From: Aliiruegeria haliotis | GTDB lineage: Bacteria; Pseudomonadota; Alphaproteobacteria; Rhodobacterales; Rhodobacteraceae | Assembly: GCF_003003255.1 (NCBI RefSeq) | Contig: NZ_PVTD01000016.1 | Coordinates: 1-58,035 of the forward strand | Direction: 5' to 3' | Length of the DNA stretch: 58,035 nucleotides | Shown here: piece after piece, positions 32,651-57,313 of the stretch | How positions within the stretch are numbered: the first letter of the stretch is position 1 | Layout of the letters: the number at the start of each line of letters is the position of its first letter | Made by a program: the position numbers and the translations under genes | The notes under the pieces: generated by a model | What the model was told of the DNA's origin: nothing | Seen by the model: the letters and a program-made list of their open reading frames with translations, nothing else | Databases searched by the model: none

Positions 32651-34150
32651 CTACACAACCGGGGCTCTCTCCGGATCGACACTGCGTCGGACGGCCCGAA
32701 ACACGATAACCGCTGCAAGCAAAGCGACCACGGCAAGGATCGTGGCGCTGATGGGCCGTTGCAGAAAGATCCACATTCCATCGTCGGAGATTAGCAGAGA
32801 GCGACGGAAGTTTGCCTCGCAGATCGGCCCGAGGATCGCGCCCATGACAATGGGGGCCAGCGGGTAGTCAGCGCGGCGCAGGAAATAGCCGACGATTCCG
32901 AAACCGAACATCACCCAGAGGTCGAAGACCGCGGACTGGATGGCAAAGACACCAACGGTGGAGAGCAGCATGACTGCCGGGATCAGAAACGCCTTTCGTA
33001 GCCTCAGGACGGACACGAAAACGGGTGTCAGCACCACGCCGAGGACGAGCAGGAACAGGTTCGACGACATATAGGCGAGGAAGATACCGCCGGCGACATC
33101 CGCATTGTATTCAAACAGTTCCGGACCAGGGAAGAAGCCGAGCAGGAACAGCGCTGCCATCAGGACGGCGGTAGAACCGTCACCGGGAATACCGAGCGAC
33201 AGGGTTGGAATCAGCGCACCCCCGCAGCAGGCATTATTGGCGGACTCCGTCGCGACAACGCCCCCTTCCGCACCCTCGCCATAGACCTCGCCACGCTTGG
33301 GACGAGCCTTGGCAATGGCATAGGCTGTGAAGGCGCTGATGACACCACCGGCCCCCGGCAGTGCTCCGAACGTGCTGCCGAGCAGGCTCGACCGCACGAG
33401 GTTGGGCACATGCCGGGACACGATCCCGAGCGCCCTGAACGGTGCGCGGACTGGAGGGATGTCGGGCTTGGTCAGGAAGCTGCCGCCACGGATCTGGTAG
33501 ATGACCTCGGAGATTCCGAACAGACCGACCACGATGGCGACGATGTGGAAGCCGTTGTACAGGTTGTGCGTGCCGAAGGTGAAGCGATAGGCATTGGTGA
33601 AATCATCGGTGCCGATGGTGGCGAGCAGGAGGCCGAACGCACCCGTGATGAACCCTTTCACAGCGGATTCCCGGGCCACGACCACGATTGCCATCAACCC
33701 CAGTAAGGTCATGGCAAAGTATTCCGGAGGTGCAAAACTCAACGCGAACTCCGCGAGGAAGGGCGAAAAGAAGATCAGCACTGCCCCGCCGATCAGCCCG
33801 CCGATTGCCGAGGCCGAGATGGCGATGCCAATCGCGTCCTGTGCCCTTCCGTTCCGGGCCATCGGGTAGCCGTCGAGAAGGGTCGCGGCCGCCAGCGGTG
33901 TACCGGGAATGCGCAGCAGGATCGCGGAAATCGCCCCGCCGCAGGAGCCGCCGACATATACAGCGATCAGCAGGCCCATTCCCGCGACGGGTTCCAGGTG
34001 GAAAGCCACAGGCAAAAGCAGGATGATCCCCATCAGCGGGCCGAGGCCGGGCAAGACGCCGATCATCAATCCCAGGAAGCAGCCAGCCGCCGTGAGAAAA
34101 ACCGTGAGGGGTGATAGAAACAGGCTGGCGCCAGTGGTCAGAAGTTCCAT
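32651..34150 (-). CDS. Tripartite tricarboxylate transporter large permease, module 1 (TctA family)
   Basis: A 499-residue TctA-family protein with about 11-12 hydrophobic segments. Family motifs visible are GVLPGLGPLMGIILLLPVAF, VGGSCGGAISAILLRIPGTP, GALPGAGGVISAFTAYA and the block ESANNACCGGALIPTLSLGIPGDGSTAVL. It is the main channel of a secondary transporter that works with a periplasmic binding protein to import carboxylates. The ATG at 34150 has GAGAGGAGAGA directly upstream and lies 9 bases after tctB. It is the last gene of the sulfatase-tctC-tctB-tctA operon. Confidence 0.93.
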   Translation of the reverse strand: MELLTTGASLFLSPLTVFLTAAGCFLGLMIGVLPGLGPLMGIILLLPVAFHLEPVAGMGLLIAVYVGGSCGGAISAILLRIPGTPLAAATLLDGYPMARNGRAQDAIGIAISASAIGGLIGGAVLIFFSPFLAEFALSFAPPEYFAMTLLGLMAIVVVARESAVKGFITGAFGLLLATIGTDDFTNAYRFTFGTHNLYNGFHIVAIVVGLFGISEVIYQIRGGSFLTKPDIPPVRAPFRALGIVSRHVPNLVRSSLLGSTFGALPGAGGVISAFTAYAIAKARPKRGEVYGEGAEGGVVATESANNACCGGALIPTLSLGIPGDGSTAVLMAALFLLGFFPGPELFEYNADVAGGIFLAYMSSNLFLLVLGVVLTPVFVSVLRLRKAFLIPAVMLLSTVGVFAIQSAVFDLWVMFGFGIVGYFLRRADYPLAPIVMGAILGPICEANFRRSLLISDDGMWIFLQRPISATILAVVALLAAVIVFRAVRRSVDPERAPVV

Positions 34151-34159
34151 TCTCTCCTC

Positions 34160-34669
34160 TCAGACGGGCAAGGCGATGCCAAAGATGCCGACGGGCAGCA
34201 CGACGTTCAGAAGCACCTCGAAAACGAAGGCGGTTGCCAGCGACAAAGCGAGCGCGAAGGCCGCCGCCTGCACGAGCCGAACGCCAAACATCATAAGGAT
34301 GGCGAAGATGAAGGCCGGAGTGGTGATGTGATAGCCAAGTACGGGCAGCGCCAGCAGGTATCCTGCAAGACCCACCACCGAGGCGACCGGCATCCAGGCC
34401 GGCGCATTCGCTGCGTCGTCACGGGATTTGCCCGCCGGTAGCCCCCGCAGGGTCGCGAGCAGAACCGATCCGAGGTGCCAAAGTGCGAGAACTCCAAGAA
34501 GCGCCGCCACGATCTGCGGGTAGAGCGCTGCGTTTGTCATCGCGTCGCCCGATGCGACGTCCTGCTCGGCGAGCGAGGTTCGGCTCTGCTGGACCACGAC
34601 AATGGGCGGGACCAGCAGAGCGAGGGCAACGCCGATTTCGATCCAGTCGGGAGGTCTGGTATCTGACAT
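34160..34669 (-). CDS. Tripartite tricarboxylate transporter small permease, module 1 (TctB family)
   Basis: A 169-residue TctB-family protein with four hydrophobic segments (near residues 11-25, 50-70, 95-120 and 130-165). It is the small membrane subunit of the TTT transporter. TctB sequences are poorly conserved, so the assignment relies on length, membrane topology and position between tctC and tctA. A GGGA motif precedes the ATG. Confidence 0.87.
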   Translation of the reverse strand: MSDTRPPDWIEIGVALALLVPPIVVVQQSRTSLAEQDVASGDAMTNAALYPQIVAALLGVLALWHLGSVLLATLRGLPAGKSRDDAANAPAWMPVASVVGLAGYLLALPVLGYHITTPAFIFAILMMFGVRLVQAAAFALALSLATAFVFEVLLNVVLPVGIFGIALPV

Positions 34670-34689
34670 CGGCGTTTCCCTTTTCTCCG

Positions 34690-34706
34690 CGCGCTACTTC
34701 AGCGCG
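34690..34706 (-). other. Stem-loop at the tctC stop codon, module 1
   Basis: CGCGCT (34690-34695) and AGCGCG (34701-34706) form a 6-bp stem with a 5-base loop that includes the tctC stop codon. Stronger hairpins follow the binding-protein genes of the other two sulfatase modules, so this may help keep binding-protein mRNA more abundant than permease mRNA. Confidence 0.5.
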
Positions 34707-35689
34707 TCGAGTTGCTCTTTTTCCCAGGCGATGGCGTCGATCCCGCTCTGCAGTTGCTCTGCAACCGGGGCGACAATCTCGTCATACTGGTCCGGAGAGT
34801 AGCCGAGCGGAACGAAACCCACATTTAGGATCTTTTCCTTCACCTCGGGGTCATTCACCGCCGCGCCCATCGCGGTGCGCAGTTTTTCCACAACATCCTC
34901 TGGCGTGCCCTTTTTGACCAGCCACCAGTTCCAGCCCATCGGTGCAAGGCCGGACATGCCCAGATCGACACCAAAATCCATCACACGTGGCGCGCCGTCA
35001 TAGACTTCGGAGGCGGCGTCCAGTTCGGAGAGAACCGCGATCACCTTCAGGTGGTCCTTGTTGGTCTTGTAGAAGCCGGGATTTGAAGTCAGGAAGTCGA
35101 GCACGCCTCCGCGCAGATCCTTCACGCCATCCTGCATCTCCGGATAGGGAACCGGCTTGGCAACGATGTTGGAGGTCTGCATGACCTTGGCCAGAACCAT
35201 ATGCGGAAGGTTGCCGGTGCCACCGGTGGTGTAGCGCATCTTGCCCGGGTTCTCCTGGGCGTATTTCACAAAGCCCTCGAAATCATCGAAGCGGTCTTCG
35301 TCAGCACGAACCACGATGGCAAAGGCGTTCGAGGTGCCCGACCAGAGCGGGACGAAGTCCTTGTAGGTCCAGTCGGCCTTGCCAAGCAGCGGCTGAAGCA
35401 CCAGCGGCGCAACATATCCGTCGAACAGCGTGTAGCCGTCAGCGGGGCGCTCCATCGCCGTCTTGAACGCCTTGGTTCCGGCCGCGCCGGGCGTCGAGAC
35501 AACCGAGACGTTCACGCCCAGCTCATCGCCCATGGCATCGGCTATGATCTGGCTCACGCCCATCGTCGCGCCGGGGCCCCAGGGATAGATGTCCTCGATA
35601 TTGCGCTCCGGGAACTCCGCCATCGCCGATTGCGCGACGGCGAAGGTTGATACGGCCGCAGCGGCCAAAATTGTCAGTGGTTTACGCAT
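34694..35689 (-). CDS. Tripartite tricarboxylate transporter solute-binding protein, module 1 (TctC family)
   Basis: A 331-residue periplasmic binding protein. The signal peptide is MRKPLTILAAAAVSTFAVAQ with a likely AMA-E cleavage at about residue 24. The mature protein has the TctC/Bug layout: DIYPWGPGATMGVSQIIADAM, STPGAAGTKAFKTAMERPADGYTL-type segment (around residues 65-90), and YTTGGTGNLPHMVLAKVM. The ATG at 35689 overlaps the end of the sulfatase gene by 8 bases and has GGGAGGAG upstream, within that gene. The ligand is probably an anionic organic molecule; a sulfated carboxylate is suggested by the neighbouring sulfatase. Confidence 0.92.
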   Translation of the reverse strand: MRKPLTILAAAAVSTFAVAQSAMAEFPERNIEDIYPWGPGATMGVSQIIADAMGDELGVNVSVVSTPGAAGTKAFKTAMERPADGYTLFDGYVAPLVLQPLLGKADWTYKDFVPLWSGTSNAFAIVVRADEDRFDDFEGFVKYAQENPGKMRYTTGGTGNLPHMVLAKVMQTSNIVAKPVPYPEMQDGVKDLRGGVLDFLTSNPGFYKTNKDHLKVIAVLSELDAASEVYDGAPRVMDFGVDLGMSGLAPMGWNWWLVKKGTPEDVVEKLRTAMGAAVNDPEVKEKILNVGFVPLGYSPDQYDEIVAPVAEQLQSGIDAIAWEKEQLDALK

Positions 35690-37232
35690 ATGCACTCCTC
35701 CCATGCGTGGTTCGCTTCGGCATGGACAGCCCATACCAGTCATAGACACTTTGTGGCGTGTCGTGGTCGGCCAGCGTTTGCTCGATGAAGTGGCGAAGTT
35801 GCGCCGTGACAAGTTCATCCTTGATCGGGTTTTTCTGACCCGGGTCGGCAACGAGGTCATAGAGCCTTGTGCCGATATCGCCGAAGCCTTTGCCATCGTT
35901 CATCGGCACACGCTTGGCATCCTTCAGCGCCGCATAGCTGACCAGCGGCACACCCTTGGTGAAGTCGAAGGGCGGCACCAGTTCGGCTGTAGCGAGCTCC
36001 TCAGCGGTGAAGTATTCGGTCATGTGAGCGGGAACGAGCGTGTGTTCTCGCAGCCCGTCCCGCTCGACATCGTCCGGGTATAGATACATCACATGTGTGC
36101 CGTCGGTGACACCGATGGCACCGCCAAAGATACCGAAGATTGCCGAAGCCCGTCCGCATGCAGCGTTGCCATTGGCGACCCGTGCGAGGTCGATGGAACG
36201 TGCCTCCGGCGGTGGGGCGATGCCGTGCAGACCGAGCAGGGTTGGCATCAGATCTGTCGACTGGGTCAGCGCATCAACCTTGCGTCCACCCGGCTCGGGA
36301 TGGCGCGGATCGTGGATCATCAGCGGGATGTGCGAGATCTCTTCGAAATAGGGCATCCGGCACTTGCCCCACCAATCCTGTTCGCCGAGCAGGAATCCAT
36401 GATCCGTGGTCAGGACTAGGGCAGTGTCCTTCCACATGTCATGTTCATCGAAATAGTCGAGCAGCTTGCCGAAATAGTGGTCGCACATCGCCACCAGCGC
36501 ACAGTAGTTGGCCCGGATCGCATCGATTTCTGCGTCGCTCTCGACCACTTTGTCGTAGTGTGGCCAGTCGAGGATCTTGCCGGTGTAGCGCGTTTCTTCG
36601 GTATGGAAACGTTCGGGCGCGAAGAAGGGTTCGTGCGGATCGAAGCATTCCAGCATCATCATCCAGTCTTCCGATCCGCGATTCAGGTCGAGAAACTCGA
36701 AGGCGCTGTTGAAGCACTTGACCGCCGGGAAATCCTCCTCGGTTTTAATGAATTGCCGGTTGATCGCGTAGTTCAGGCGCTTCGGGGCACGTTCGAAATC
36801 GTAGTGCTTCTCGGAAAAGGTCTCGCGGATATGGTCCATCGGCGGTTCGACCAGCGGTTTCCATGGATCGTATTCTTGGCCACGATGAAACTCGTAGCTG
36901 CTGAAGCGAGTGTGAAAGCCGCTGCCGCCATCCTCCATGTAATGCAGGTGATCGGTGATCAGATGCGTATAGACGCCCTTTGCCCGCAGCATTTCCGAGA
37001 AGGAATTGTCATAGGGCTCCAGCGGCCCCCAGCTGCGGTGCATGAAATTGAGCCGACCCGTGTGCATGTCGCGTCTCGCCGGCATGCAGGGCATCGAACC
37101 GACATAGTGCTTGGAAAAGCGGGCCGACCTTGCGGCAAACCTGTCGAAGTTGGGCGTGGCAACGGCCGTGCCACCATAGCATTGCAGCGCGAGGCGATTC
37201 AGGCTGTCAAACAGAACGAAAACAGTACGCAT
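35682..37232 (-). CDS. Cytoplasmic sulfatase, module 1
   Basis: A 516-residue type I sulfatase. The formylglycine motif CxPxR is read as CMPAR with Cys49, within HYVGSMPCMPARRDMHTGR. Metal-binding regions are Asp9 in VLFDSLNR and the later TTDHGFLLGE. No signal peptide is present: the chain starts MRTVFVLFDSLNR directly, so it should act in the cytoplasm. The ATG at 37232 follows GGAGGACT. It heads an operon with tctC, tctB and tctA and is divergent from a LysR gene. It is clearly a relative of the sulfatases at 46310 and 54732. The substrate is unknown. Confidence 0.92.
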   Translation of the reverse strand: MRTVFVLFDSLNRLALQCYGGTAVATPNFDRFAARSARFSKHYVGSMPCMPARRDMHTGRLNFMHRSWGPLEPYDNSFSEMLRAKGVYTHLITDHLHYMEDGGSGFHTRFSSYEFHRGQEYDPWKPLVEPPMDHIRETFSEKHYDFERAPKRLNYAINRQFIKTEEDFPAVKCFNSAFEFLDLNRGSEDWMMMLECFDPHEPFFAPERFHTEETRYTGKILDWPHYDKVVESDAEIDAIRANYCALVAMCDHYFGKLLDYFDEHDMWKDTALVLTTDHGFLLGEQDWWGKCRMPYFEEISHIPLMIHDPRHPEPGGRKVDALTQSTDLMPTLLGLHGIAPPPEARSIDLARVANGNAACGRASAIFGIFGGAIGVTDGTHVMYLYPDDVERDGLREHTLVPAHMTEYFTAEELATAELVPPFDFTKGVPLVSYAALKDAKRVPMNDGKGFGDIGTRLYDLVADPGQKNPIKDELVTAQLRHFIEQTLADHDTPQSVYDWYGLSMPKRTTHGRSAYA

Positions 37233-37324: not shown

Positions 37325-38257
37325 ATGTTTCATCCGTTCTACTCGCGCCCAATGGTGTTGTTTCAGGCAATTTACGAGACTGGCAGTTTGCGAAAGGCCG
37401 CCGAGACGGTCGGACTGACGCAGCCGGCCCTCACCAAGAGCCTGCAGCAACTCGAGGAGCAACTCGAAGCCGCACTCTTTGTCCGAACACCGAAAGGAAT
37501 GGTGCCGACCGAGGCGGGCGATGCGCTTTACCGGTATGCCTACAACCTCAAGAAAAGTGCGGAATACGCACAGTTGGAAATCGCAGGGCTGGAGACGGGA
37601 GAACGCGGGCTGCTGCGTATTGGCGGCGGAGTAACCTGGGCAACGACCGTGCTGCCCAAGGTTCTGAGCAACATGCGCTACGAGTTTCCCGACCTTGCAT
37701 TGGACCTGGTGACAGGGATCACTGACCAACTCTGGCAACAGCTTGAGAACGGTCGCATCGACATCATGATTGCCGCCGAAGGGCACAATGTCCCGCTGGA
37801 CCCCGAGTTCGTGACAATCCCGCTAGCCCGAGTGCCCATGACCGCTGTCGCAAGTGTCGACCATGTTCTTGCGCAAGGCGGGCCCTTGCCTGTAAGCCGG
37901 CTTCTCGATCACGACTGGTCAGGCTTCTACGAAGACGATGCGCTTATCCAGCGCGCCCAGTTCCACCTTGGCAAATTCGGGCTGCAACCGCCTGCATTTG
38001 TCCTCCGCTCCAACTCTTTCACAGCATTGATGCAAATGGTTCGTCTGTCGGGATCCATAGCAATCATCAGCGACATCCTGGTCGAACAGGCCGAATTGAT
38101 GGGGATTTGCAGGATACCGCTGGACGCGCCGCTCTGGTCGCTTCAGACCAATATCCTGCTTCGGCGATCAGCCCTCTCACTCAAGTCCATTCAGCGTTGC
38201 ATCGAGATCACGCGAATGGCGATCTCCCACCATCGCCCGGAATACCTGATCTCGTGA
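37325..38257 (+). CDS. LysR-family regulator of sulfatase module 1
   Basis: A 310-residue LysR protein. The N-terminal winged helix reads MVLFQAIYETGSLRKAAETV, then GLTQPALTKSLQQLEEQLEAALFVRTPKG. The rest is the effector domain with LLRIGGGVTWATTVLPKVL. It is transcribed divergently from the sulfatase-TTT operon and is the natural candidate for its activator. The ATG at 37325 has only a weak AGGTAA upstream, but no better start exists. Confidence 0.9.
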   Translation: MFHPFYSRPMVLFQAIYETGSLRKAAETVGLTQPALTKSLQQLEEQLEAALFVRTPKGMVPTEAGDALYRYAYNLKKSAEYAQLEIAGLETGERGLLRIGGGVTWATTVLPKVLSNMRYEFPDLALDLVTGITDQLWQQLENGRIDIMIAAEGHNVPLDPEFVTIPLARVPMTAVASVDHVLAQGGPLPVSRLLDHDWSGFYEDDALIQRAQFHLGKFGLQPPAFVLRSNSFTALMQMVRLSGSIAIISDILVEQAELMGICRIPLDAPLWSLQTNILLRRSALSLKSIQRCIEITRMAISHHRPEYLIS

Positions 38258-38708: not shown

Positions 38709-39803
38709 CTACGAAACCAAGCGCGGCAGGGCCTTCCCGGTGGGAATGTCAAACGCGTGCAGCAGGGGTGTCGGCAAGGTGGCTTGCACGCGATCCCCTG
38801 CCCTTGAATGCCCCGTACCGCCAACGCGCGCCGTCAGACGGCATCCTTCAATGTCGAGATTGAGCAGCGCATCCGCACCGAGCAATTCCGCGAGACGGAC
38901 CTCTGCCTCGAAGGAACCCCCGTTCGCACCGGTCTCCGCGTGCGGTGTGATTACGACGTGTTCGGGCCGGATTCCGAGACGTATCTCCGAGCGGTCCCCC
39001 AAGGAGAATGGCAGAGACTCGAACCTCAACCCGCCTTCGGTGGAAGACCAACCGCCGCCGGCGCCACGCCGCAGGTCGATGAAGTTCATCGACGGGCTGC
39101 CGATGAAGCCTGCCACAAACTCGTCGGCCGGACTGTCATAGACCTCGCGCGGAGAGCCGACCTGCGCAACGACGCCGCCGTTCATGATGACGATCCGGTC
39201 GGCCAGCGTCATCGCCTCGATCTGGTCGTGGGTGACGTAGATCGAGGTCACACCGAGGCTGTCGTGCAACTCCTGCAACTCCATCCGCATCTTGACCCGG
39301 AGCTTGGCGTCAAGGTTCGAGAGCGGCTCGTCGAACAGGAACACCTTCGGCGTGCGGACAATGGCGCGGCCGATTGCGACGCGCTGGCGCTGGCCGCCCG
39401 AAAGCGCGGCCGGCTTGCGTTCGAGATACTCGGTCAGGCCGAGCATTTCAGCGGTGCGTCCGACACGATCTCTGATCTCCTCCACCGGCACCTTTTGAAG
39501 CTTGAGCGCCATGGCCATGTTGTCGAAAACCGTCTTGTGCGGATAGAGCGCGTAGTTCTGGAACACCATGGCCACGCCGCGGTCCTTGGGATCCACATCG
39601 TTCATCCGCGTGCCGCTGATCGTGAGGTCGCCGGTGGTGATGCTCTCCAGCCCGGCGATCATCCGCAGCGTGGTGGACTTGCCGCAGCCGGACGGGCCGA
39701 GCAGCACCAGGAACTCGCCATCCTCGATGGTCAGATCGAACTCCTGAACGGCCTCGACCGCGCCATAGGATTTGCCGATGCGTTCCAGTTTCACTTCGGT
39801 CAT
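38709..39803 (-). CDS. Carbohydrate ABC transporter ATP-binding protein (UgpC/MalK type)
   Basis: A 364-residue ATPase of the MalK/UgpC/MsmK group. It has Walker A GPSGCGKST, the Q-loop FQNYALYPHKTV, the signature LSGGQRQRVAIGRA, Walker B VFLFDEPLSNLDA, and the switch His in YVTHDQIEAM. A C-terminal OB-fold regulatory domain (from about 240) starts near FIGSPSMNFI. It energises uptake of a sugar or polyol by the two permeases encoded upstream. It starts 10 bases after the second permease gene and ends the operon. Confidence 0.95.
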   Translation of the reverse strand: MTEVKLERIGKSYGAVEAVQEFDLTIEDGEFLVLLGPSGCGKSTTLRMIAGLESITTGDLTISGTRMNDVDPKDRGVAMVFQNYALYPHKTVFDNMAMALKLQKVPVEEIRDRVGRTAEMLGLTEYLERKPAALSGGQRQRVAIGRAIVRTPKVFLFDEPLSNLDAKLRVKMRMELQELHDSLGVTSIYVTHDQIEAMTLADRIVIMNGGVVAQVGSPREVYDSPADEFVAGFIGSPSMNFIDLRRGAGGGWSSTEGGLRFESLPFSLGDRSEIRLGIRPEHVVITPHAETGANGGSFEAEVRLAELLGADALLNLDIEGCRLTARVGGTGHSRAGDRVQATLPTPLLHAFDIPTGKALPRLVS

Positions 39804-41542: not shown

Positions 41543-41567
41543 GTCATGCCTGTCGGTTGGAGAGGTT

Positions 41568-41592
41568 CCCGGCGGCATGGTGGACCGCCGGG
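41568..41592 (-). other. Stem-loop between the ABC binding-protein and permease genes
   Basis: CCCGGCGG (41568-41575) and CCGCCGGG (41585-41592) form a perfect 8-bp stem with a 9-base loop in the 76-base gap. Hairpins at this position in sugar ABC operons commonly protect the upstream binding-protein message from 3' decay. Confidence 0.65.
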
Positions 41593-41618
41593 ACTTGCCT
41601 GTCGGGAGGTCGCGGCCG

Positions 41619-49645: not shown

Positions 49646-50554
49646 TCAAGCAACAGAGAATATCGCGGTTCCTGTCAGGCTCTCTCCGCCCGAAAGCACA
49701 CGGGTGCCTGTTCCCGGAACACCGGTTTCTTGAAGATTGAAGGCATTGATCGTATGGCTGATCGGCTCGATGCAAAAGAACGGCAGACCAGGGACGACAT
49801 GAAACAGGATACGGTCCAGTGCACCGGTGGCCGATACGGTCAAGGCGCGCCCATGTTCCGGCCATTGGATTGCGGCCTTCCGATCCCACTGATCGAGGCA
49901 GTGGGTGAAGCGATTGGCGGGAAGGTCACGGAAATCGCTGTAGTCGAGATCTTCGGACGCGGGCTCCATCGCCAGCGGGATCAGGTCTTCCGGAGCGGGC
50001 CACCAAGCGCCAACCCCCATCTTCACGAGCGGGTTTCCAATGCGCGGGAAATAGGGGTGAAGCCCGATCCCTCCTGGCATTGGATCCGGTCCGGTATTTG
50101 TCAGATTGAAATCAATTGTCAGCGCGGTGTCAGTCAGCGAAATCGACTGGCGCGCGCGGTAGGGAAAGGGCCATGTTCCGTGGCCCGGTCTGTGATCGAA
50201 TGTGATTGTGACATGGGATAGCCCCTGGTCGGCGACATCCCACTCCGCGAGGTGGCCGTCACCGTGCATGGCATGCGGCGGACATTGCGGATGGGCAGCA
50301 AGCGGATAGTTCCGGCCCCGGTAGTTCAACTGCCCGTCGCGCAACCGGTTCGAGAATGGCACCAGCGGATAGCACCCGGCTTTCTGCGGCGCCTGCCGGT
50401 CCATCGGCGCAGCAGGATCGGTTGGAAGGAACCAGTCCCACGTTCCCTGCGCATCGATGGTCGAAAAGCGAAGAATTCGCCCGCCGTACTCCGGCCGCAC
50501 CGTTGCCGATAGTTGCCCGGCGCGCAGTTCGATGTTGCCCGAGCCATATTTCAA
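49646..50554 (-). CDS. Aldose 1-epimerase family protein
   Basis: A 302-residue mutarotase-fold protein. Family blocks are ATVRPEYGGRILRF, PLVPFSNRL, the catalytic-type His in HAMHGDGH, GIGLHPYFPR with a second His, and LPFFCIEPISH with the conserved Glu. The chosen start is TTG at 50554, with AGGAG 8 bases upstream, overlapping the tctA stop as TTGA (50551-50554). Longer in-frame versions read far into tctA with no conserved sequence. It is the last gene of the module 3 operon and would equilibrate anomers of the imported or desulfated sugar. Confidence 0.87.
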   Translation of the reverse strand: MKYGSGNIELRAGQLSATVRPEYGGRILRFSTIDAQGTWDWFLPTDPAAPMDRQAPQKAGCYPLVPFSNRLRDGQLNYRGRNYPLAAHPQCPPHAMHGDGHLAEWDVADQGLSHVTITFDHRPGHGTWPFPYRARQSISLTDTALTIDFNLTNTGPDPMPGGIGLHPYFPRIGNPLVKMGVGAWWPAPEDLIPLAMEPASEDLDYSDFRDLPANRFTHCLDQWDRKAAIQWPEHGRALTVSATGALDRILFHVVPGLPFFCIEPISHTINAFNLQETGVPGTGTRVLSGGESLTGTAIFSVA

Positions 50555-52071
50555 GGGGATGGCTCCTGCGCCGAGGCGTTGGCCGCCTTCCAGCGTGTGC
50601 GGATCGTCCAGAGGATCGAGCCCAGTGTCAGGACCATGAACATCAGCGCGATCGGTTGCGTAAAGAGCGGCCAGACATCGCCATATTGCCCCAGCATCTT
50701 GCGGAAGTTGCCTTCGATCAGCGGGCCAAGAACGAAGCCGAGCACAAGTGGCGCGAGCGGATAGCGCATGCGTTCGAGGATATAGCCAAGACAGCCGAAG
50801 CCGCACATCACGAGGATGTCGAAGACGCGGTTGTTGGTGGAGTAGACGCCCGTCGCCGCCAGAACGAACAGCAGCGGCAGCAGGATCTCCTTGGGGAGTT
50901 CCATCACCTTTGCCAGCGGCCGCATGAAGGCCAGCAACACGAACATCATGAAGAACGCGCCGAGGAACACGGTGAGGTAGATCGCGTAGAGCACCTCCGG
51001 GTAGCTCATGAAGAGCCGCGGGCCTGGCTCCAGGCCGTGGATCATCAGCCCCCCGATCAGAACCGCCGTCGCCGGATCACCGGGGATGCCGAGCGTCAGC
51101 ATGATGATGAGTGCCCCGCCGATCGCAGCATTGTTGGCGGTTTCGGAGGCGACGATGCCAGGTATGTGGCCGGTGCCAAACTTCTCGCCTTCCTTGGAGG
51201 CGTTCTTGGCCTGAGCATAGCTGATGAGCCCCGCGGTGGCGCCGCCAACCGCTGGGATCACGCCAATCACTGTGCCGATCAGCCCCGACCGCAGGTAGTT
51301 CCCGAGGTTCTGGCGAATGGACGTCAGGCTCGGCAAAATGCTCTCGATTGAGATGGCCTTGACCTTCTTCGCGCTTTTCATGTTTGCGACCTCGACCATG
51401 ATCTGGGAGACCGCGAAAAGTCCCATCAGGGCAGGCAGAAAGGTGAAGCCGCCGAGGAACATGTCCGAGCCGAAATTGAAGCGCGGCACGCCGTCTTCCT
51501 CGGAAATCCCGAACGTCGCCAGCAACACGCCGAGCATGCCGGTCAGCAACCCCTTGGCCATCGATGAGCCGGACACGGCAGAGATTGCCGTGAGCGCGAA
51601 GACACAGACGGCGACATATTCCGCGAAGTGGAACTTCAGAGCGAAGGCCGCAAGGAGTGGCGCGGAGAAGATCAGAATGATGCCGGAGATGATCGTGCCA
51701 AAGAAGGAGGCCACAACCGCATTGCTGATAGCTTGCCCGGCCTTACCCTGGGTGGCCATCGGAAAGCCGTCTAGCAAGGTGGCCACCGAAGCGGGTGTGC
51801 CGGGCAATCGGATCAGGATGGCCGTCAGGCAGCCGCCCGAGACGCTGCCGATATAGACGGCGACCAACAGCGCCATGCCGGTCTCCGGCAACATCGTGAA
51901 GGTAAAGGGTATAAGGATGGCAATGGCCATCGTCGCGCCCATGCCGGGGATGATGCCGATGATGATACCGCCGGCGACCCCCAGAAAGACGATGAGGATA
52001 TTGAACGGGTCGAGGACACGTGACAGCGCTTCCAGGAGAACCGCGGAGTCGAAACCGATCATTTCACCCAT
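50551..52071 (-). CDS. Tripartite tricarboxylate transporter large permease, module 3 (TctA family)
   Basis: A 506-residue TctA protein with about 11-12 hydrophobic segments. Motifs are GIIPGMGATMAIAILIPFTF, SVSGGCLTAILIRLPGTPASVATLLDGFP (two adjoining blocks near residues 60-90), GVIPAVGGATAGLISYAQA and ASETANNAAIGGALIIMLTLGIPGDPATAVL. The ATG at 52071 has GGAGAG upstream, which overlaps the tctB stop. It belongs to a different TctA subgroup from the module 1 paralogue, judging by the many differences, so the two transporters probably differ in ligand. Confidence 0.93.
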   Translation of the reverse strand: MGEMIGFDSAVLLEALSRVLDPFNILIVFLGVAGGIIIGIIPGMGATMAIAILIPFTFTMLPETGMALLVAVYIGSVSGGCLTAILIRLPGTPASVATLLDGFPMATQGKAGQAISNAVVASFFGTIISGIILIFSAPLLAAFALKFHFAEYVAVCVFALTAISAVSGSSMAKGLLTGMLGVLLATFGISEEDGVPRFNFGSDMFLGGFTFLPALMGLFAVSQIMVEVANMKSAKKVKAISIESILPSLTSIRQNLGNYLRSGLIGTVIGVIPAVGGATAGLISYAQAKNASKEGEKFGTGHIPGIVASETANNAAIGGALIIMLTLGIPGDPATAVLIGGLMIHGLEPGPRLFMSYPEVLYAIYLTVFLGAFFMMFVLLAFMRPLAKVMELPKEILLPLLFVLAATGVYSTNNRVFDILVMCGFGCLGYILERMRYPLAPLVLGFVLGPLIEGNFRKMLGQYGDVWPLFTQPIALMFMVLTLGSILWTIRTRWKAANASAQEPSP

Positions 52072-52074: not shown

Positions 52075-52539
52075 TTACTCTCCGAAGGCTTCGAGGACGC
52101 CGCCGGGAAACTCGACCAGCAGACCGTAGTGAAAAACGATGTAGATTGCGGCGGTTCCCAGCACCGCCGACAGCGCCGCGACGGTTAGGCCACGGCGATC
52201 CGTGGATCCCAGATAGGCGGTAAAGACAAAGACGAAGAGTGGCGTCAGCACCAGATATCCGACGCTTCTCAACAGGAAGTAGTACGCCAGCCCGCCCGCC
52301 AGAAAAACGAATGAACGACCGCAGAAGGTGACCTCTTCCCCCGGCTCGAGCGTGCCCTTCCAGACCATGAAAAGTGCGAGAACGCCCAACCCAATCAGGA
52401 CCAGCCGGGGCCAGAAGGCGACGCCGAGCTGCTCCCAGTCTGTCGAGGGGAAACTGTAGGTCTCCAGATACAGGAAAGCACCCACGAGGATGACGACGAT
52501 TGCCAGAGCCCTGTCCGGCGCTGTAAGCCAGTTCTTCAT
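52075..52539 (-). CDS. Tripartite tricarboxylate transporter small permease, module 3 (TctB family)
   Basis: A 154-residue protein with four hydrophobic segments, e.g. ALAIVVILVGAFLYLE and SVGYLVLTPLFVFVFTAYLG. TctB assignment is based on length, topology and position between tctC and tctA. A GGGGAG motif precedes the ATG; the stop is 3 bases before the tctA start. Confidence 0.87.
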   Translation of the reverse strand: MKNWLTAPDRALAIVVILVGAFLYLETYSFPSTDWEQLGVAFWPRLVLIGLGVLALFMVWKGTLEPGEEVTFCGRSFVFLAGGLAYYFLLRSVGYLVLTPLFVFVFTAYLGSTDRRGLTVAALSAVLGTAAIYIVFHYGLLVEFPGGVLEAFGE

Positions 52540-52614: not shown

Positions 52615-53571
52615 CTAGAAACCGAGGTTCTTGCCGGTTTCCAACGTTTCGGCGCGGATCTTGTCCATCGCCTTTACGGTGTCTTCGGTACCCAGGTAGT
52701 CGAAGGCAAAGCTCACGTTTGCGATTGCTTCCTGGTACTCCGCATCATCCGCCAACGCGGCGATGGCATCCGAGATGACCTTGACGCGCTCGGGATCCAT
52801 ACCCTTGGGCCCGATCACGGCATAGGTGTTCGCCGCCACAACGTCCGCGCCATAATCGCGCGCGATGGGCAGGTCCTCGAAGCCGGGGATGGTCAGGCGC
52901 TCGGGCGCGAACACCGCCAGGATCCTGAGCTGGTCGGCCCGGTGCTGACCGATGGTGCCAGGAAGAGGCTCGATCCCGGCAGCGACGTGTTCGCCGAGAA
53001 CCGCGGCCTTCTTTTTCTGCCCTGCGCCAACGTTGACAAGCTGTACGTCAATGCCAAGCGCGTCGCGGATCTGCCCCGAAACGAAGTGTGCCGGCGTACC
53101 ATAGCCCATGGCGATGCCGAGTTGACCCGGATTTGCCTTCGCGTCGTTGGCGAAGTCTTCCAGCGTTTCGTATTTGCCGCCTTCTCCCTTGGCGAACATG
53201 GTGACATACATCGCGCCCCATTGGGAAATCGGCTCAAACTGCTCGTGCGTCAGTTGGTGCTTGCCAGTGGACTCGCCGACAGCCATGGAATTGACCCACA
53301 TCGACAACGTGTAGCCGTCATTGCGCGCCTGTTTCAGCTCGTTCCAGGCCAGCGCACCGCCGGCACCGTCGACGTTGACGACTGCGATGTTGGTATCGAG
53401 GATCGGGCCAAGATGCTTGGCCAGAATCCGGCAGACAACGTCGGATGCGCCGCCCGGTCCGTAGGGCACGATGAACTTGATCGGCTTTTCGGGGTAGTCC
53501 GCAAGGGCTCCCATTGCCGAGCCCATTGCCAGTATGGCGGCAAGTCCCAGGGTCTTTAGCGTCTTCTTCAT
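52615..53571 (-). CDS. Tripartite tricarboxylate transporter solute-binding protein, module 3 (TctC family)
   Basis: A 318-residue periplasmic binding protein. The signal peptide (MKKTLKTLGLAAILAMGSAMG) is cleaved before about DYPEKPI (ALA-D). Family blocks are IKFIVPYGPGGASDVVCRILAKHL, NVDGAGGALAWNEL, and QLGIAMGYGTPAHFVSGQI. GGGAGGAG precedes the ATG. It lies 66 bases after the enolase-superfamily gene. Only about one third of positions look shared with the module 1 TctC, so different ligands are probable. Confidence 0.92.
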   Translation of the reverse strand: MKKTLKTLGLAAILAMGSAMGALADYPEKPIKFIVPYGPGGASDVVCRILAKHLGPILDTNIAVVNVDGAGGALAWNELKQARNDGYTLSMWVNSMAVGESTGKHQLTHEQFEPISQWGAMYVTMFAKGEGGKYETLEDFANDAKANPGQLGIAMGYGTPAHFVSGQIRDALGIDVQLVNVGAGQKKKAAVLGEHVAAGIEPLPGTIGQHRADQLRILAVFAPERLTIPGFEDLPIARDYGADVVAANTYAVIGPKGMDPERVKVISDAIAALADDAEYQEAIANVSFAFDYLGTEDTVKAMDKIRAETLETGKNLGF

Positions 53572-53637
53572 GTCGGTTCTCCTCCCATGTCATGATGAAG
53601 TCTTTCGGCACGCATGGTTGCGCACCGCCGTGAGTGG

Positions 53638-54735
53638 TCAGAAGTCGTCGTAGGTCAGCTCCAACCCGAGGCCGGGTTTCTCCAGCGGCGCAACATGGCC
53701 ATCCTTCACGTCGAAAGCGCCCTCCGGAGCCATGTCGAACAGCCATTGCTGGATCTGGTGAAACTCGACCGACTCGCAATTGGGCAGCGATGCGGCCATG
53801 TGGATGCTGGCAGACATCAGCACGCAGCTTCCGGCGGCGTGCAGCGTGAAGGGCACGTGCCAGGCCTCGGCCAGTGCCGCGATGCGCCGCGCTTCGCTGA
53901 TGCCGCCGCAGATGCTGAGATCGGCTTGCGCAAAAGACACCGCGCCGGTTTCAAGGTAGCGCCGGAATGCATCGACACCGAAGATGTTCTCGCAGCCCGC
54001 CAGCGGGGCTGGTCCGCTCTGATTGATCCGCGCCATACCGTCAACAGAGCGCGGAGAGACCGGTGCCTCGAACCAGTAGAGATCGTAGGGCGCCATCGCC
54101 CGCTGGTACCGCAGTGCCTCGGTCGTGGTGAGCATGTAATTTGCGTCGATCATGAAACGGGCGTCCGGGCCAATCGCTTCCCGGACAGCCGCCACCCGCT
54201 GCACGTCCACCGCAAGCGGCCCGCCGGCGACCTTGATCTTGGCGCCGGTAAATCCTTGCGACAGCCAGCCCGCGACTTCCCGCCCCTGATCCTCCGGTGT
54301 CTTTCCATCCGCGTAGAGTCCGGCGCTGGCGTAGGTGTAGACCTTGTCGCGCGACGCCCCGAGCGCCTTGTAGAGCGGCTGCCCCATGGCGCGGGCGACC
54401 AGATCCCACAGCGCCATGTTCACCGCGCTCATCGCCGCGCCGACGATGCCACGGCGGTTGCTCTCTTCCGTGCGGGACATCACATCCGACCAGATTGCCT
54501 CAAGAAAGAACGGGTCCTGCCCGACAACCATCGGCTTGATGTCGTCCTCCCAGATCGAGACAAGCGCCTCCGGGCTGCCGAACTCCGTCCAGGCCTCACC
54601 GACACCAAGTAGCCCGGTGTCGGATTCGAGGAACACCAGCGCCACGGTCTTCTTGGTCATCGCGCGCCGGGCGTTCTTGACCCCAGGGGGGAAGTCGCGC
54701 CGGACCAGCCGGCAGACCATTTTGGTGATCCTCAT
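53638..54735 (-). CDS. Mandelate racemase/muconate lactonizing enzyme family dehydratase
   Basis: A 365-residue enolase-superfamily enzyme with all active-site parts of the mandelate racemase subgroup. Lys166-x-Lys168 is in AKIKVAGG, the Mg ligands are Asp197 (MIDANY), Glu223 (WFEAP) and Glu249 (GCENIFG), and the Asp272/His299 dyad is in ADLSICGG and TLHAAG. Such enzymes usually dehydrate acid sugars (aldonate or aldarate) to 2-keto-3-deoxy acids. The ATG at 54735 overlaps the sulfatase stop as ATGA (54732-54735). The link to a sulfatase and a carboxylate transporter suggests a sulfated or desulfated sugar acid as substrate. Confidence 0.92.
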   Translation of the reverse strand: MRITKMVCRLVRRDFPPGVKNARRAMTKKTVALVFLESDTGLLGVGEAWTEFGSPEALVSIWEDDIKPMVVGQDPFFLEAIWSDVMSRTEESNRRGIVGAAMSAVNMALWDLVARAMGQPLYKALGASRDKVYTYASAGLYADGKTPEDQGREVAGWLSQGFTGAKIKVAGGPLAVDVQRVAAVREAIGPDARFMIDANYMLTTTEALRYQRAMAPYDLYWFEAPVSPRSVDGMARINQSGPAPLAGCENIFGVDAFRRYLETGAVSFAQADLSICGGISEARRIAALAEAWHVPFTLHAAGSCVLMSASIHMAASLPNCESVEFHQIQQWLFDMAPEGAFDVKDGHVAPLEKPGLGLELTYDDF

Positions 54736-56282
54736 GCCGCGGTTTCCTCCTGCATCTCCGCCGCGAGCTCGACGAGGTCGAACCGCCGATACGCCTCGGC
54801 TGGCGCGTCATGGTCCGCCATCAGCCGCACCATCGATCGCAGCAGCCGCGCCTCGACCTCCGGATCGTCAACGGGCATCGTCTGACCCGGGTCGCTCTGG
54901 AGGTCGTAGAGAACCGTGTGGCAATCCTCGATCGTCGCACCTTTCAGGAGCCCGTCCGCAGCGCCCATGTTGGACGGCAACCGCAAGAGCCGCACGCCCT
55001 TGGAGAATGCGAAGGGCCCGGCGAGTTCAGCACCATCGAACTCCCTGACCGCAAAACGCGAGCGCAAATGCGTCGGCATCAGCGTGTACTCGAACAGTTC
55101 CTGTTCCGGGATGGAGTTGGGATAGCGGAAATAGGTGTAGCGCCCGTCGGTGATGTTAAGCGCCGCGCCGAACATGCCAAAGAGGCATGCCTCGCGACCC
55201 GGCACATCCTCGCGCAGCACGTTCAGAAGCGAGGCGCCCTGCACATCCGCCGGGACGGGCTGGCCGAATGTGTCGAGGATCGTCGGCATCACGTCCATAG
55301 TCTGGGTCAGCGCAGACCGCCGCGTGCCGGCTTGGTCGGCAAAATCCGGGTGGTGGAGGAACAGTGGTATGTGGCTGATTTCCTCGTAGAACGGCATCCG
55401 GTTCTTGCCGAACCAGTCATGCTCGCCAATCAGGAAGCCATGGTCCGAAGTCACGATGAGCGCCGTGTCCTTCCAAAGATCATGTTCATCAAAATAGTCC
55501 AGCAGCCGCCCGAGGTTTTCGTCACACATGGCGATGAGTGCTGCGTAGTTGGCCCGCATCTCGGCCACTTCCTCCGGCGCCTCATCGCTTAGGCGATCAT
55601 AGCGGGGGCAGTCGAGGATCGGCCCGTCATATCCCGTTGGATAGTCCTTGCGGAAGCGCTCGGGTGCGGTGAATGGCTCGTGCGGGTCGTAGCACTCGAC
55701 CTGAAGGAACCAGTTGTCGGCCATGCGGTTCCGGTTGAGGAAGTCGATTGCCCCATCGAGCACCCGCACCAGCGGATAGTCCGGTTCCTCCTGGATCCTG
55801 GTACGATTTGAATAGTTTATGAGTTTTGAGTTGCCATTCCGGAATTCATCAAACTGAATTCGGCTATACTGCGCGCGCCAATCCTCCTTGGGGATTTCCA
55901 CCATCGGCACCCAGCCATCCTTTTCCTGCCCGCGAACGAACTCGTAGGAGTTGAACCGCTGGTGGTAGCAGACACCCCCATCCTCCCAGTAGTGGTAGTG
56001 ATCGGTCACAAGGTGGGTGTAGGTTCCGCTGCTGCGCAGGATCTCGGCATAGGAATCGTCAAAGGGTTCCAGCGGACCCCAGCTCCGATGCAGGAAGTTC
56101 AACCGTCCTGTGTGCATGTCGCGCCGGGCCGGAATGCAGGGCATAGAACCGACATAGTGGGTATCGAAGGTTACGGACCGCCGTGCGAGTCTGTCGAAGT
56201 TTGGCGTGCGAACCGACTGGAATCCATACGCGCCCAGCGAGTGGCGGGACAGGGAGTCCATCAAAAAGAAGACCGTACGCAC
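54732..56282 (-). CDS. Cytoplasmic sulfatase, module 3
   Basis: A 516-residue sulfatase, the same length as the module 1 enzyme and clearly its relative. It has Asp9 in FLMDSLSRH, Cys49 in CIPAR (HYVGSMPCIPARRDMHTGR), then TSDHGFLIGEHDWFGKNRM as the second metal region, and GMFGAALNITDGRYTYFR. No signal peptide. The start is GTG at 56282 with GGGAGGGG upstream; an in-frame extension to 56384 lies in the regulator gap and is not conserved. It heads the six-gene module 3 operon (sulfatase, dehydratase, tctC, tctB, tctA, epimerase). Confidence 0.92.
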   Translation of the reverse strand: MRTVFFLMDSLSRHSLGAYGFQSVRTPNFDRLARRSVTFDTHYVGSMPCIPARRDMHTGRLNFLHRSWGPLEPFDDSYAEILRSSGTYTHLVTDHYHYWEDGGVCYHQRFNSYEFVRGQEKDGWVPMVEIPKEDWRAQYSRIQFDEFRNGNSKLINYSNRTRIQEEPDYPLVRVLDGAIDFLNRNRMADNWFLQVECYDPHEPFTAPERFRKDYPTGYDGPILDCPRYDRLSDEAPEEVAEMRANYAALIAMCDENLGRLLDYFDEHDLWKDTALIVTSDHGFLIGEHDWFGKNRMPFYEEISHIPLFLHHPDFADQAGTRRSALTQTMDVMPTILDTFGQPVPADVQGASLLNVLREDVPGREACLFGMFGAALNITDGRYTYFRYPNSIPEQELFEYTLMPTHLRSRFAVREFDGAELAGPFAFSKGVRLLRLPSNMGAADGLLKGATIEDCHTVLYDLQSDPGQTMPVDDPEVEARLLRSMVRLMADHDAPAEAYRRFDLVELAAEMQEETAA

Positions 56283-56434
56283 AATTCCCCTCCCGCTTTT
56301 TCTCCGCATCCGACCTGCACCGGCCAATGCGCCCGCCCCAACCCGGCATATACCCTGAAGACGCAACCCACCTGGCCTAACCAATGTCGTTGCGACCCTC
56401 GGTCAGACCCGAAGTGTCGCACCTTCTCTTGCAT

Positions 56435-56502
56435 ATTGGACAAACCAATTCAAGAAAAAACGGACCAATATGAAAAAATTGGTTCATTTGGACAGACCAG
56501 TT
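56435..56502. promoter_or_regulatory. Paired GntR/FadR-type operators, module 3
   Basis: Two copies of a TTGGACA(A/G)ACCA motif occur at about 56436-56447 and 56488-56499; the first is part of a perfect ATTGG (56435-56439) / CCAAT (56445-56449) repeat. Between them ACCAAT (56464-56469) and ATTGGT (56478-56483) form another inverted repeat. These TTGG/CCAA half-sites fit FadR-subfamily GntR operators and lie between the divergent sulfatase and regulator genes. Confidence 0.75.
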
Positions 56503-56560
56503 GAGCGCTGACGACGATTGGTTTATCTTTCCGGGAGCCCCTGAGAGAGGAACGCCCCCG

Positions 56561-57313
56561 GTGGAAGAGCTTCGCAAGGATGGCAGTCGGTTGTTTCTCA
56601 CCGTTGCCGAGCAGATAAAAAACAGAATCGACACAGGCGAATTTGCCCCCGGCGAGCGGCTTCCATCGGAGCGTGAACTGGTCAAACAGCATGGCGTCAG
56701 CCGCGGTGTGGTCCGCGAAGCGCTGGTGTCCCTGCAACTCCGTGGCGTCGTGGACATTCGTGTCGGGTCTGGCGCCTATGTGACCGAGGCAAAAGCTCGC
56801 GCCAACGTGGGCGTCGACCTCGACCTGGACGACTGGACCTCCGAGCCATTTGATCTGATCGCGGTACGGAAGGTCGTCGAATGTGCTGCCGTTCGCCTTG
56901 CCGCGCTCACCGCCACGGATGCGGAGATCAGCTTGATTGGGGAGGCCGTGGACGGCATGAAGCGGGAACAGCGCCCGTTCGTCAGAAGGCATACCTTCGA
57001 TCGCCAGTTTCACGTTACAATTGCCGAGAGCACTCACAATCCGTACTACGCCCTGCTGATCAACGCGTTCTGGGATCGTTGGTTCCGGTTGCTGGACGAC
57101 GCGCCCAGCAGGCTCGCTCGGCAGCCGGAGAACCGCGATGCTGCGATCAAAGATCACGAGGTCATTTACCAGTGCCTGCGCATGCGAGATGGCGACGGTG
57201 CAGCGATCGCCATGGAACGCCACCTGGAACGCGTAAAGTGGCTATTTTCGCCAGTCGAGAAAGAACCCACAAAAGGGAGCGAGCGGTTCCCCAGTTCAGT
57301 GTCATCGCCGTGA
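56561..57313 (+). CDS. GntR-family (FadR/FCD type) regulator of module 3
   Basis: A 250-residue regulator. The N-terminal GntR winged helix is clear (LTVAEQIKNRIDTGEFAPGERLPSEREL, then GVSRGVVREALVSLQLRGVVDIRVGSGAYV). The all-helical FCD domain follows, with metal-ligand-type Asp/His in FDRQFHVTIAES and KDHEVIYQC. The start is taken as GTG at 56561, which has AGAGAGG at 56544-56550. An in-frame TTG at 56501 overlaps the operator repeats and lacks a Shine-Dalgarno. The last dozen residues (TKGSERFPSSVSSP) are not typical of the family and may be a changed tail. Confidence 0.87.
   Translation: MEELRKDGSRLFLTVAEQIKNRIDTGEFAPGERLPSERELVKQHGVSRGVVREALVSLQLRGVVDIRVGSGAYVTEAKARANVGVDLDLDDWTSEPFDLIAVRKVVECAAVRLAALTATDAEISLIGEAVDGMKREQRPFVRRHTFDRQFHVTIAESTHNPYYALLINAFWDRWFRLLDDAPSRLARQPENRDAAIKDHEVIYQCLRMRDGDGAAIAMERHLERVKWLFSPVEKEPTKGSERFPSSVSSP

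Follow-up and report, generated by a model that had tools for sequence, protein, structure and literature searches.

Three adjacent sulfatase and transporter modules in Aliiruegeria haliotis as candidate routes for small sulfated carbohydrates

Algae and mucus are rich in sulfated carbohydrates, and the breakdown of polysaccharides is the task of many carbohydrate sulfatases described so far. On a 58,035-nucleotide stretch of Aliiruegeria haliotis DNA (contig NZ_PVTD01000016.1; hereafter the window), four sulfatase genes, S1 to S4, lie among importer genes. The locus raises the question of what these gene sets bring into the cell and what their sulfatases do with it.

Layout of the three modules

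A preliminary description had placed three sulfatase and transporter sets side by side, and this was borne out: each gene that it named, in the sets LysR-S1-TctCBA, IclR/ABC-S2-DUF4432-S4 and GntR-S3-dehydratase-TctCBA-epimerase, had at least one Pfam match above cut-off (Table 1). Both tripartite tricarboxylate transporter (TTT) sets are complete, with TctA, TctB and TctC above cut-off. The claim that no polysaccharide-degrading enzyme is present holds for the module genes, none of which encodes a secreted glycoside hydrolase or lyase, the first 32 kb of the window being only partly annotated. The modules had also been called self-contained. Each does have a regulator, an importer and a sulfatase, but the FGE, which activates sulfatases, is encoded on another contig (one was found in the genome), and neither an FGE nor a complete catabolic route was seen in the window.

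Table 1. Features of the three modules and their surroundings (scores in bits)
Feature	Position	Strand	Matches and remarks
TctA1, large permease	32651..34150	-	PF01970, 463
TctB1, small permease	34160..34669	-	PF07331, 52
TctC1, binding protein	34694..35689	-	PF03401, 79; lacks D of usual PxxxGGxxD
S1, branch sulfatase	35682..37232	-	PF00884, 125; CMPAR motif
LysR-type regulator, divergent from S1	37325..38257	+	PF00126, PF03466
ABC ATPase (MalK type)	38709..39803	-	PF00005, PF17912, PF08402
ABC permease	39814..40641	-	PF00528
ABC permease	40646..41641	-	PF00528; ORF limits, true start may be internal
ABC sugar-type solute-binding protein	41619..42875	-	PF01547, 154
IclR-type regulator	42913..43692	-	PF09339, 35; no IclR_C match
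Inverted repeat, candidate operator, IclR/S2 intergenic	43700..43734	.	8-base arms, gap 19; equalled by 1/300 shuffles
S2, sulfatase outside the branch, GlcNAc-6-sulfatase-like	43783..45327	+	PF00884, 188; PF16347, 165
DUF4432 protein (aldose-epimerase-like)	45324..46286	+	PF14486, 122
S4, branch sulfatase	46310..47824	+	PF00884, 98
Orphan membrane-like ORF, 445 aa, between modules 2 and 3, outside modules	48196..49533	+	no Pfam/NCBIfam match
Aldose 1-epimerase family protein	49646..50806	-	PF01263, 92, residues 92-380
TctA3	50551..52071	-	PF01970, 470
TctB3	52075..52539	-	PF07331, 57
TctC3	52615..53571	-	PF03401, 78; motif PYGPGGASD
Enolase-superfamily (mandelate-racemase type) sugar-acid dehydratase candidate	53638..54735	-	PF13378, 210
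S3, branch sulfatase	54732..56282	-	PF00884, 136; model pLDDT 92.7
TTGGACAAACCAA, possible GntR/FadR-type site	56436..56448	.	pattern only
GntR/FadR-type regulator (GntR + FCD), divergent from S3	56501..57313	+	PF00392, 71; PF07729, 91

The IclR and ABC genes of module 2 lie on the minus strand, divergent from S2, DUF4432 and S4; S4 starts at 46310, the 45122 start of the long ORF being wrong. The probable start of S3 is a GTG at 56282, and the aldose-epimerase ORF overlaps TctA3, so that its true start lies downstream of the ORF start, inside the ORF. The IclR-type label reflects only a DNA-binding domain, and NanR/ExuR-type NCBIfam matches of the GntR/FadR-type regulator stayed below cut-off, as did the best NCBIfam match of the dehydratase candidate, archaeal arabinonate dehydratase (189 bits, cut-off 650). 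The nearest solved chains of the ABC binding protein are MalE3 and a trehalose/maltose-binding protein, and SmoF matches too. S2 matches 5g2v with an E-value of 3e-133, and the DUF4432 protein matches 3ty1 weakly (E 3e-4).

A 21-base repeat, GTGAT-N11-ATCAC at 37299-37319, was rejected as LysR operator: its arm length was reached by 237 of 300 shuffles, and a perfect T-N11-A repeat with 5-base arms occurred in only 1 of 23 other LysR-sulfatase intergenic regions. In the GntR region, too, inverted repeats did not rise above shuffles (133/300). The orphan ORF had no match in 197 other genomes of the family, and its candidacy as a sulfate exporter was dropped.

Profile search found seven TctC matches in the genome, one of them below cut-off. 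Two TctC genes lie within four genes of a branch sulfatase, against roughly 0.03 expected for seven TctC and three sulfatases by our own estimate, with the genome taken as about 4,900 genes. No other genome carried three branch members on one contig (295 genomes at E <= 1e-80; 390 at E <= 1e-120), many of these assemblies being fragmented. Elsewhere in the studied genome there are two further clusters of sulfatase, ABC and dehydratase genes. Plasmid pPABY1 of Salipiger abyssi holds an independent cluster of like kind, and such clusters are thus not unique.

The sulfatase branch and its active site

S1, S3 and S4 had been assigned to one paralogous group. They are indeed 50% (S1/S3), 47% (S1/S4) and 52% (S3/S4) identical and have the blocks MRTVF..DSL (VRTVF in S3), SMPC(M/I)PAR and HRSWGP in common; among the 19 sulfatase matches of the genome they are the sole members of their branch. 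Their PF00884 scores exceed the cut-off of 25 bits and, with CxPxR, place them in the FGly-dependent sulfatase family S1; the three proteins would be expected to carry FGly. The predicted model of S3 has a sulfatase/PMH fold.

Across 120 aligned rows, the Cys and Arg of CxPxR were invariant, and the metal-site Asp (one gap) and an Asp-His pair were kept in 119-120. The branch signature is HLx(T/S)DHxHY and HRSWGPxEP; within DHxHY, S4 carries R where the other 119 of the 120 rows carry H. The column of choline sulfatase Lys102 is D in 120/120 rows and that of Asn75 is P in 118/120, and S1, S3 and S4 accordingly lack both canonical sulfate-binding residues. These columns come from one MAFFT alignment, in which a possible off-by-one would give H and G, neither restoring K or N. 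Since the lysine and asparagine to which sulfate binding is ascribed in choline sulfatase are exchanged in the branch, the ester cleaved is one that we infer.

Judged by eye, the N-termini of S1, S2, S3 and S4 have no visible signal peptide, and those of TctC1, TctC3 and the ABC binding protein are signal-like. This agrees with the earlier idea of an importer coupled to a desulfating enzyme, in which import would precede desulfation. The proposal that the targets are small sulfated molecules fared less evenly: the sugar-type neighbours fit small carbohydrates, but desulfation is presumed for a branch whose active site is changed.

At E <= 1e-60, 12 of the 16 genomes that carry the branch had an FGE match, against 56 of the 279 that do not (counted by hand, Fisher test applied); one of the 16, G061 (91% complete), had no FGE match. 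An FGE gene lay within six genes of the sulfatase for 7 of the 120 tree rows and for 6 of 11 held-out members, and anSME and TauE were each near 1 of 120 rows. The presence of FGE cannot tell sulfatases from FGly phosphodiesterases.

Partner genes across the branch

The 120-row tree puts S1 and S4 in two different clades, both supported and with similar gene sets in other genomes, and S3 stands alone, in no small supported clade. The three do not look like recent duplicates. The expectation that the modules recur as units was upheld for modules 1 and 2, but for module 3 in gene content only; module 1 is found in Salipiger abyssi and in Chelativorans. Since S1, S3 and S4 differ in lineage and in partners, different substrates are plausible, and in this measure the notion of a related but different molecule for each module may stand.

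The transporter type tracks the tree, with 11 changes where shuffling gave a mean of 38.2 (minimum 30), as does the divergent LysR gene (5 changes; mean 22.2, minimum 18). DUF4432 (11 changes; mean 15.3, minimum 12) and the enolase-superfamily gene (14; mean 18.8, minimum 15) track it weakly. The neighbour labels behind these counts miss some genes; a Marinovum DUF4432 gene was recognised only through Pfam. Among held-out members, the transporter type was that of the nearest tree row in 6 of 8 scored, and 2 of 8 break the rule. Relatives are flanked by sugar-acid genes (sugar kinase, IlvD/Edd, mandelate-racemase-type, DHDPS-family, ketoglutarate-semialdehyde dehydrogenase and SMP-30), and in enterobacteria and Enterococcus relatives the partners are PTS sugar transporters. 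Of 5,426 complete E. coli genomes, 552 carry a PTS-sulfatase set of the branch. A pattern scan returned at least 593 matching stretches; among the matches listed, 585 encode a relative.

In 390 genomes, 8 of the 9 places with a TctC1-type binding protein have a branch sulfatase next to it, and so do 3 of 4 such places on plasmids. Against the linkage, one TctC1-type locus (G328) has no adjoining sulfatase, and a partial TctC1-type stretch in Chelativorans is separated from a branch sulfatase by about 19 kb. The motif P-F-x-A-G-G-x-x-D is mainly fitted by TctC3, whereas in TctC1 (PWGPGATMG) neither the second G nor the D is present. In the same genome, G-G-x-x-D was kept in all three readable TctC of the five matches outside the window.

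Readings of the locus and known systems

The main rival to a sulfatase function is a reading that we hold to be unlikely, in which the branch consists of FGly phosphodiesterases or PMH-type phosphonate monoester hydrolases and the modules import phosphodiester- or phosphonate-bearing sugars. A GDPD-type phosphodiesterase gene adjoins the branch gene in five Rhizobiales relatives, which counts against sulfatases, but the PehA scores of 94-158 bits fall short of the cut-off of 900, a few relatives have TauE/SafE and aryl-sulfate sulfotransferase genes nearby, which indicates sulfur, and the sulfatases of neighbouring modules on Salipiger pPABY1 keep the K-x-H pattern. True sulfatases might also act on imported esters that are not carbohydrates (alkyl or aryl sulfates, sulfated hydroxy acids) and supply the cell with carbon or sulfur. 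Choline sulfatase offers a precedent, TTT proteins are known to handle chiefly carboxylates, and sulfolactate too (available part of PMC5812351), and CoA-transferase and AMP-ligase genes adjoin four relatives (L026, L028, L062, L076). The ABC partners are nevertheless of carbohydrate type, and the PTS, DUF4432, aldose epimerase, enolase-superfamily dehydratase, IlvD/Edd and sugar kinase neighbours indicate sugars; we regard non-carbohydrate esters as unlikely too. That the window holds one system duplicated in tandem, with a single substrate and differences due to drift, would suit three paralogs on one contig and none elsewhere in the genome. It appears very improbable, given that S1 and S4 are each 64% identical to genes of other genomes (S1 in Salipiger, S4 in a species of the same genus) against 47% to each other and lie in different supported clades, that TctC1 and TctC3 are 27% identical, and that another genome of the genus (G007) has three branch members on three contigs.

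We consider it probable that the locus comprises three nutrient modules that share a design but descend separately, each pairing an exchangeable importer with a cytosolic sulfatase for small sulfated carbohydrates. The regulator would control the divergent operon, and the small sulfate ester would pass the inner membrane intact through an importer of high affinity, which is a TTT system in modules 1 and 3 and a sugar ABC transporter in module 2. The cytosolic FGly enzyme of the branch, activated by the FGE of the genome, would then strip the sulfate, and the freed sugar or sugar acid may pass through the epimerase-type and dehydratase enzymes into pathways elsewhere in the genome. If true, such a modular cytosolic route, with TTT, ABC, TRAP or PTS importers, would explain how small fragments could be used by bacteria that have no polysaccharide-degrading enzymes. 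The branch itself is widespread, uncharacterised and unusual in its active site, and raises the enzymological question of what lets an FGly enzyme function when the usual sulfate-binding lysine is missing.

More tentatively, and with some doubt, the branch might be a functionally distinct class of FGly hydrolases in which the invariant Asp-His replaces the sulfate-binding lysine, and around which Proteobacteria, Firmicutes and Actinobacteria have an exchangeable-importer system for sulfated sugars; the LysR-linked TctC1-type proteins would have lost the carboxylate-pincer Asp because they bind a sulfate ester. A receptor of this type binding a sulfate ester, not a carboxylate, would to our knowledge be the first such TTT receptor.

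In titles and abstract openings of the papers searched we found no description of TTT and sulfatase modules, of a cytosolic sulfatase with an ABC transporter, or of enolase-superfamily enzymes with a sulfatase; the available part of a study of SAR202 sulfatases and enolase-superfamily paralogs likewise describes no such module (PMC10444878). In a marine bacterium, TctCBA imports alginate oligosaccharides, and D26A of the motif Asp abolishes binding (PMC13390454, available part). That TctCBA serves carbohydrate acids, as those of modules 1 and 3 may do; no sulfatase is described in that part, and the Asp essential there is absent in TctC1. An island of S. pneumoniae combines ROK, PTS, sulfatase, FGE and TauE genes and gave no activity on 4-methylumbelliferyl sulfate (PMC3283741, available part), which would count against desulfation if its enzyme belonged to the branch. 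Sugar importer, sulfatase, FGE and TauE stand together there as in the E. faecium relative; the importer is a PTS as against TTT and ABC here, and the likeness drawn here is one of gene content. Polysaccharide utilisation loci differ in having a secreted glycoside hydrolase or lyase. PehA/PMH (SulfAtlas S1_0) has the same fold and type of CxPxR motif, and is the best profile match and among the best structural matches, but the branch enzymes reach only 115, 94 and 158 bits on NF045661 and have their own two signature motifs. The choline sulfatase BetC (SulfAtlas S1_12) is likewise an FGly sulfatase for a small sulfate ester, with the same fold and with CxPxR and the metal-site residues kept. 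BetC acts in the cytosol on an ester that has been imported. A true BetC is encoded separately in the studied genome (869 bits, no visible signal peptide), and S1, S3 and S4 differ from choline sulfatase in scoring 91-100 bits on TIGR03417 (cut-off 433.45), in lacking Lys102 and Asn75, and in having transporters of their own.

Sulfatase modules of the window genome

Annotation of the window, a complete contig of 58,035 bases from a 5.04 Mb genome, bore out the preliminary description of three sulfatase-plus-transporter modules and their layout: LysR, sulfatase S1 and TctCBA (module 1); IclR and ABC transporter, S2, DUF4432 and S4 (module 2); GntR, S3, dehydratase, TctCBA and epimerase (module 3). 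The genome contains 19 sulfatase-family matches. A search with S3 returned S1 at 554 bits, S4 at 552 bits and the next best match at 77 bits, which shows that, as judged by similarity, only S1, S4 and S3 are members of the S3 branch (hereafter the branch). S2 is another type of sulfatase, nearest to GlcNAc-6-sulfatases, and a true choline sulfatase (869 bits) is encoded elsewhere in the genome. Contig C7 carries two more clusters of sulfatase, sugar ABC transporter and enolase-superfamily dehydratase genes (L140 and L141); one of the two also includes genes of the DHDPS family and an ORF that combines IclR and SMP-30 domains.

An inverted repeat in module 2, reached by 1 of 300 shuffles, is a candidate operator. 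An orphan protein encoded in the window had no Pfam or NCBIfam match, and no match in 197 other genomes of the family.

Positions of individual features in the window and in compared loci
Feature	Record	Position	Remarks
Inverted repeat TCCCATAT-N19-ATATGGGA	window	43700-43734	between IclR and S2
Orphan 445-aa membrane-like protein	window	48196-49533	between modules 2 and 3
Three tandem sulfatases (L146)	window genome, contig C4	~27.8-32.7 kb	secretory-type N-termini; outside the window branch
PTS IIC-IIB-sulfatase set (L104)	E. coli	8303-11482	flanked by rlmC and artJ on the record studied
Held-out branch member (L162)		3468-5252	sole nearby transporter on the opposite strand
Independent sulfatase-module cluster (L169)	Salipiger abyssi pPABY1	182-208 kb	within ~26 kb

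Distribution and gene neighbourhoods of the branch

A pattern-based scan covering a single genome for each species found relatives encoded in at least 585 stretches, from which 79 loci were retained. The branch occurs in 16 of 295 genomes of the window's family (E <= 1e-80), including three (G024, G109 and G257) with weaker matches only, E 1e-83 to 1e-94, which may belong to a sister branch. It was also found in 14 of 390 genomes of the order sample (E <= 1e-120), where three of the five species listed from the window's own genus have it; the branch is therefore accessory. Sixty-three plasmid records carry it, among them records from Streptomyces, Enterococcus, Paenibacillus and E. coli; 15 were hand-picked for study. 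A PTS IIC-IIB-sulfatase set of the branch is present in 552 of 5,426 complete E. coli genomes, chromosomal every time.

Together, the window, the 79 pattern-scan loci, 15 plasmid stretches and 16 family-genome stretches made up 111 loci with 121 branch members; one short fragment was left out, giving a tree of 120 rows that includes some same-record or near-duplicate entries and one member (L126_6339) on a very long branch. Neighbouring genes were labelled by means of phmmer and an in-house ORF caller. Each row was classed by the closest transporter on its own strand, up to four genes away: 33 rows had ABC, 28 TTT (tripartite tricarboxylate transporter), 16 TRAP and 4 PTS, with S4 assigned manually to ABC since its transporter is divergent; 32 rows had no transporter within that distance and 7 had one on the opposite strand only.

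The view that the modules are conserved as units held for two of the three. Module 1 (LysR-sulfatase-TctC with TctB and/or TctA) recurs in L055, L061, L068, L107, L110, L119, L120, L124, L127 and L128, and module 2 (ABC-sulfatase-DUF4432) in, for example, L044, L064, L071, L079, L108 and L118. Module 3 is found elsewhere in content only (TctC, sulfatase and dehydratase in L003, L008, L024, L059 and L129), in differing gene orders.

Mapped onto the tree, transporter type (81 rows) required 11 changes versus a shuffled mean of 38.2 and minimum of 30 (200 shuffles), and divergent LysR 5 changes versus a mean of 22.2 and minimum of 18; the dehydratase and DUF4432 track the sulfatase tree weakly. 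S1 belongs to a five-member starred clade whose loci are mostly of the LysR-TTT kind (64% to Salipiger). S4 forms a pair, also starred, with the sulfatase of an ABC-DUF4432 locus (64% to same-genus genome G007), and S3 falls in no small supported clade of the 120-row tree, so the three sulfatases represent separate lineages. In a Rhizobiales clade of branch sulfatases (L039, L042, L051, L054 and L065) the sulfatase gene adjoins one for a GDPD-type phosphodiesterase, and most of these loci have a LacI regulator; this arrangement may mark a phosphodiester substrate.

Twelve further, held-out regions yielded 13 members, two identical to rows already in the tree. L167 and L168, whose nearest rows have no transporter label, and the L162 member, with its one nearby transporter (ABC, like its nearest row) on the opposite strand, were left unscored. 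Six of the eight scored members share the transporter type of their nearest row; L160 and L164 break the match, the TTT genes of L164 also lying on the opposite strand.

Binding proteins and sulfatase maturation

Proteins of the type of TctC1, the module 1 binding protein, occur (E <= 1e-60) at 9 places in 8 of 390 genomes. A branch sulfatase adjoins them at 8 of the 9, divergently in G518; at the ninth, in G328, LysR, TctC, TctB and TctA stand beside SMP-30, SDR and dehydratase genes, without a sulfatase. On plasmids, with 4 places in 3 records, a full-length protein directly follows a branch sulfatase at 3, and a Chelativorans plasmid has a partial stretch with a stop, ~19 kb from a second branch sulfatase. 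The TctC1-type protein and the branch sulfatase are thus linked, G328 and Chelativorans excepted.

The motif P-F-x-A-G-G-x-x-D is described in a review as almost ubiquitous in TTT binding proteins, with a role at the ligand's proximal carboxylate (PMC5812351), and in a paper on TphC as highly conserved (PMC8556258); in an alginate-binding TctC, D26A is reported to abolish binding (PMC13390454). Its D is absent from all 11 TctC proteins encoded at LysR-sulfatase loci, and also from that of L126, where the gene set is the same but no LysR is visible. The final D is retained by 21 of the 22 other TctC near branch sulfatases (exception L016), but four of these 21 (L009, L015, L021 and L123) lack other motif letters; D-loss was compared with locus type by Fisher's test, the related proteins not being independent. 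TctC1 reads PWGPGATMG, without D, and TctC3 of module 3 PYGPGGASD, with D. We infer that TctC1 would grip its ligand in another way, perhaps via a sulfate group.

The window genome has one gene of the FGE family, whose products activate sulfatases (FGly), on contig C6. By hand counts from the table, any FGE match was present in 15 of 16 genomes with the branch (none in G061) versus 144 of 279 without it (Fisher p 1e-3), and a match at E <= 1e-60 in 12 of 16 versus 56 of 279 (p 8e-6). Within six genes, FGE was found at only 7 of the 120 tree rows, anSME at 1 and TauE at 1 (examples of such FGE or sulfur-gene neighbours are in E. faecium, Serratia, Streptomyces, Chelativorans, Salipiger and Neorhizobium), and FGE at 6 of 11 held-out members. 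If the branch were instead made up of phosphonate monoester hydrolases, FGE would serve these as well, so the FGE evidence supports FGly, not sulfate.

Cellular location and substrate

As assessed by eye, the catalytic domain starts right at the N-terminus in S1, S3, S4 and S2, whereas the N-termini of TctC1, TctC3 and the ABC binding protein resemble signal peptides; secretory-type starts also occur on several further sulfatases of the genome. These N-termini agree with import of an intact ester that would then be desulfated in the cytosol.

The pPABY1 cluster comprises TctC-sulfatase-TctB-TctA-TauE (TauE/SafE), an IlvD/Edd dehydratase with a PfkB sugar kinase, LysR-branch sulfatase-TctCBA, FGE and LysR-ABC-sulfatase; one sulfatase of non-branch type likewise lies inside a TctC-TctB-TctA set. 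In Marinovum algicola pMaD4, an ABC-branch sulfatase-DUF4432 set neighbours genes for a mandelate-racemase-type enzyme, a DHDPS-family enzyme and ketoglutarate-semialdehyde dehydrogenase. These two clusters and those of contig C7 point to sugars or sugar acids. None of the NCBIfam matches of the module 3 dehydratase was above cut-off; among solved structures it is closest to putative mandelate racemases and a galactonate dehydratase, which makes an acid sugar its probable substrate.

Taken together, the modules likely serve to take up small sulfated carbohydrates and to remove their sulfate in the cytosol. The kinds of part that make them up are already known; what is new is an uncharacterised sulfatase branch with a changed active site and the swapping of importer types around it.
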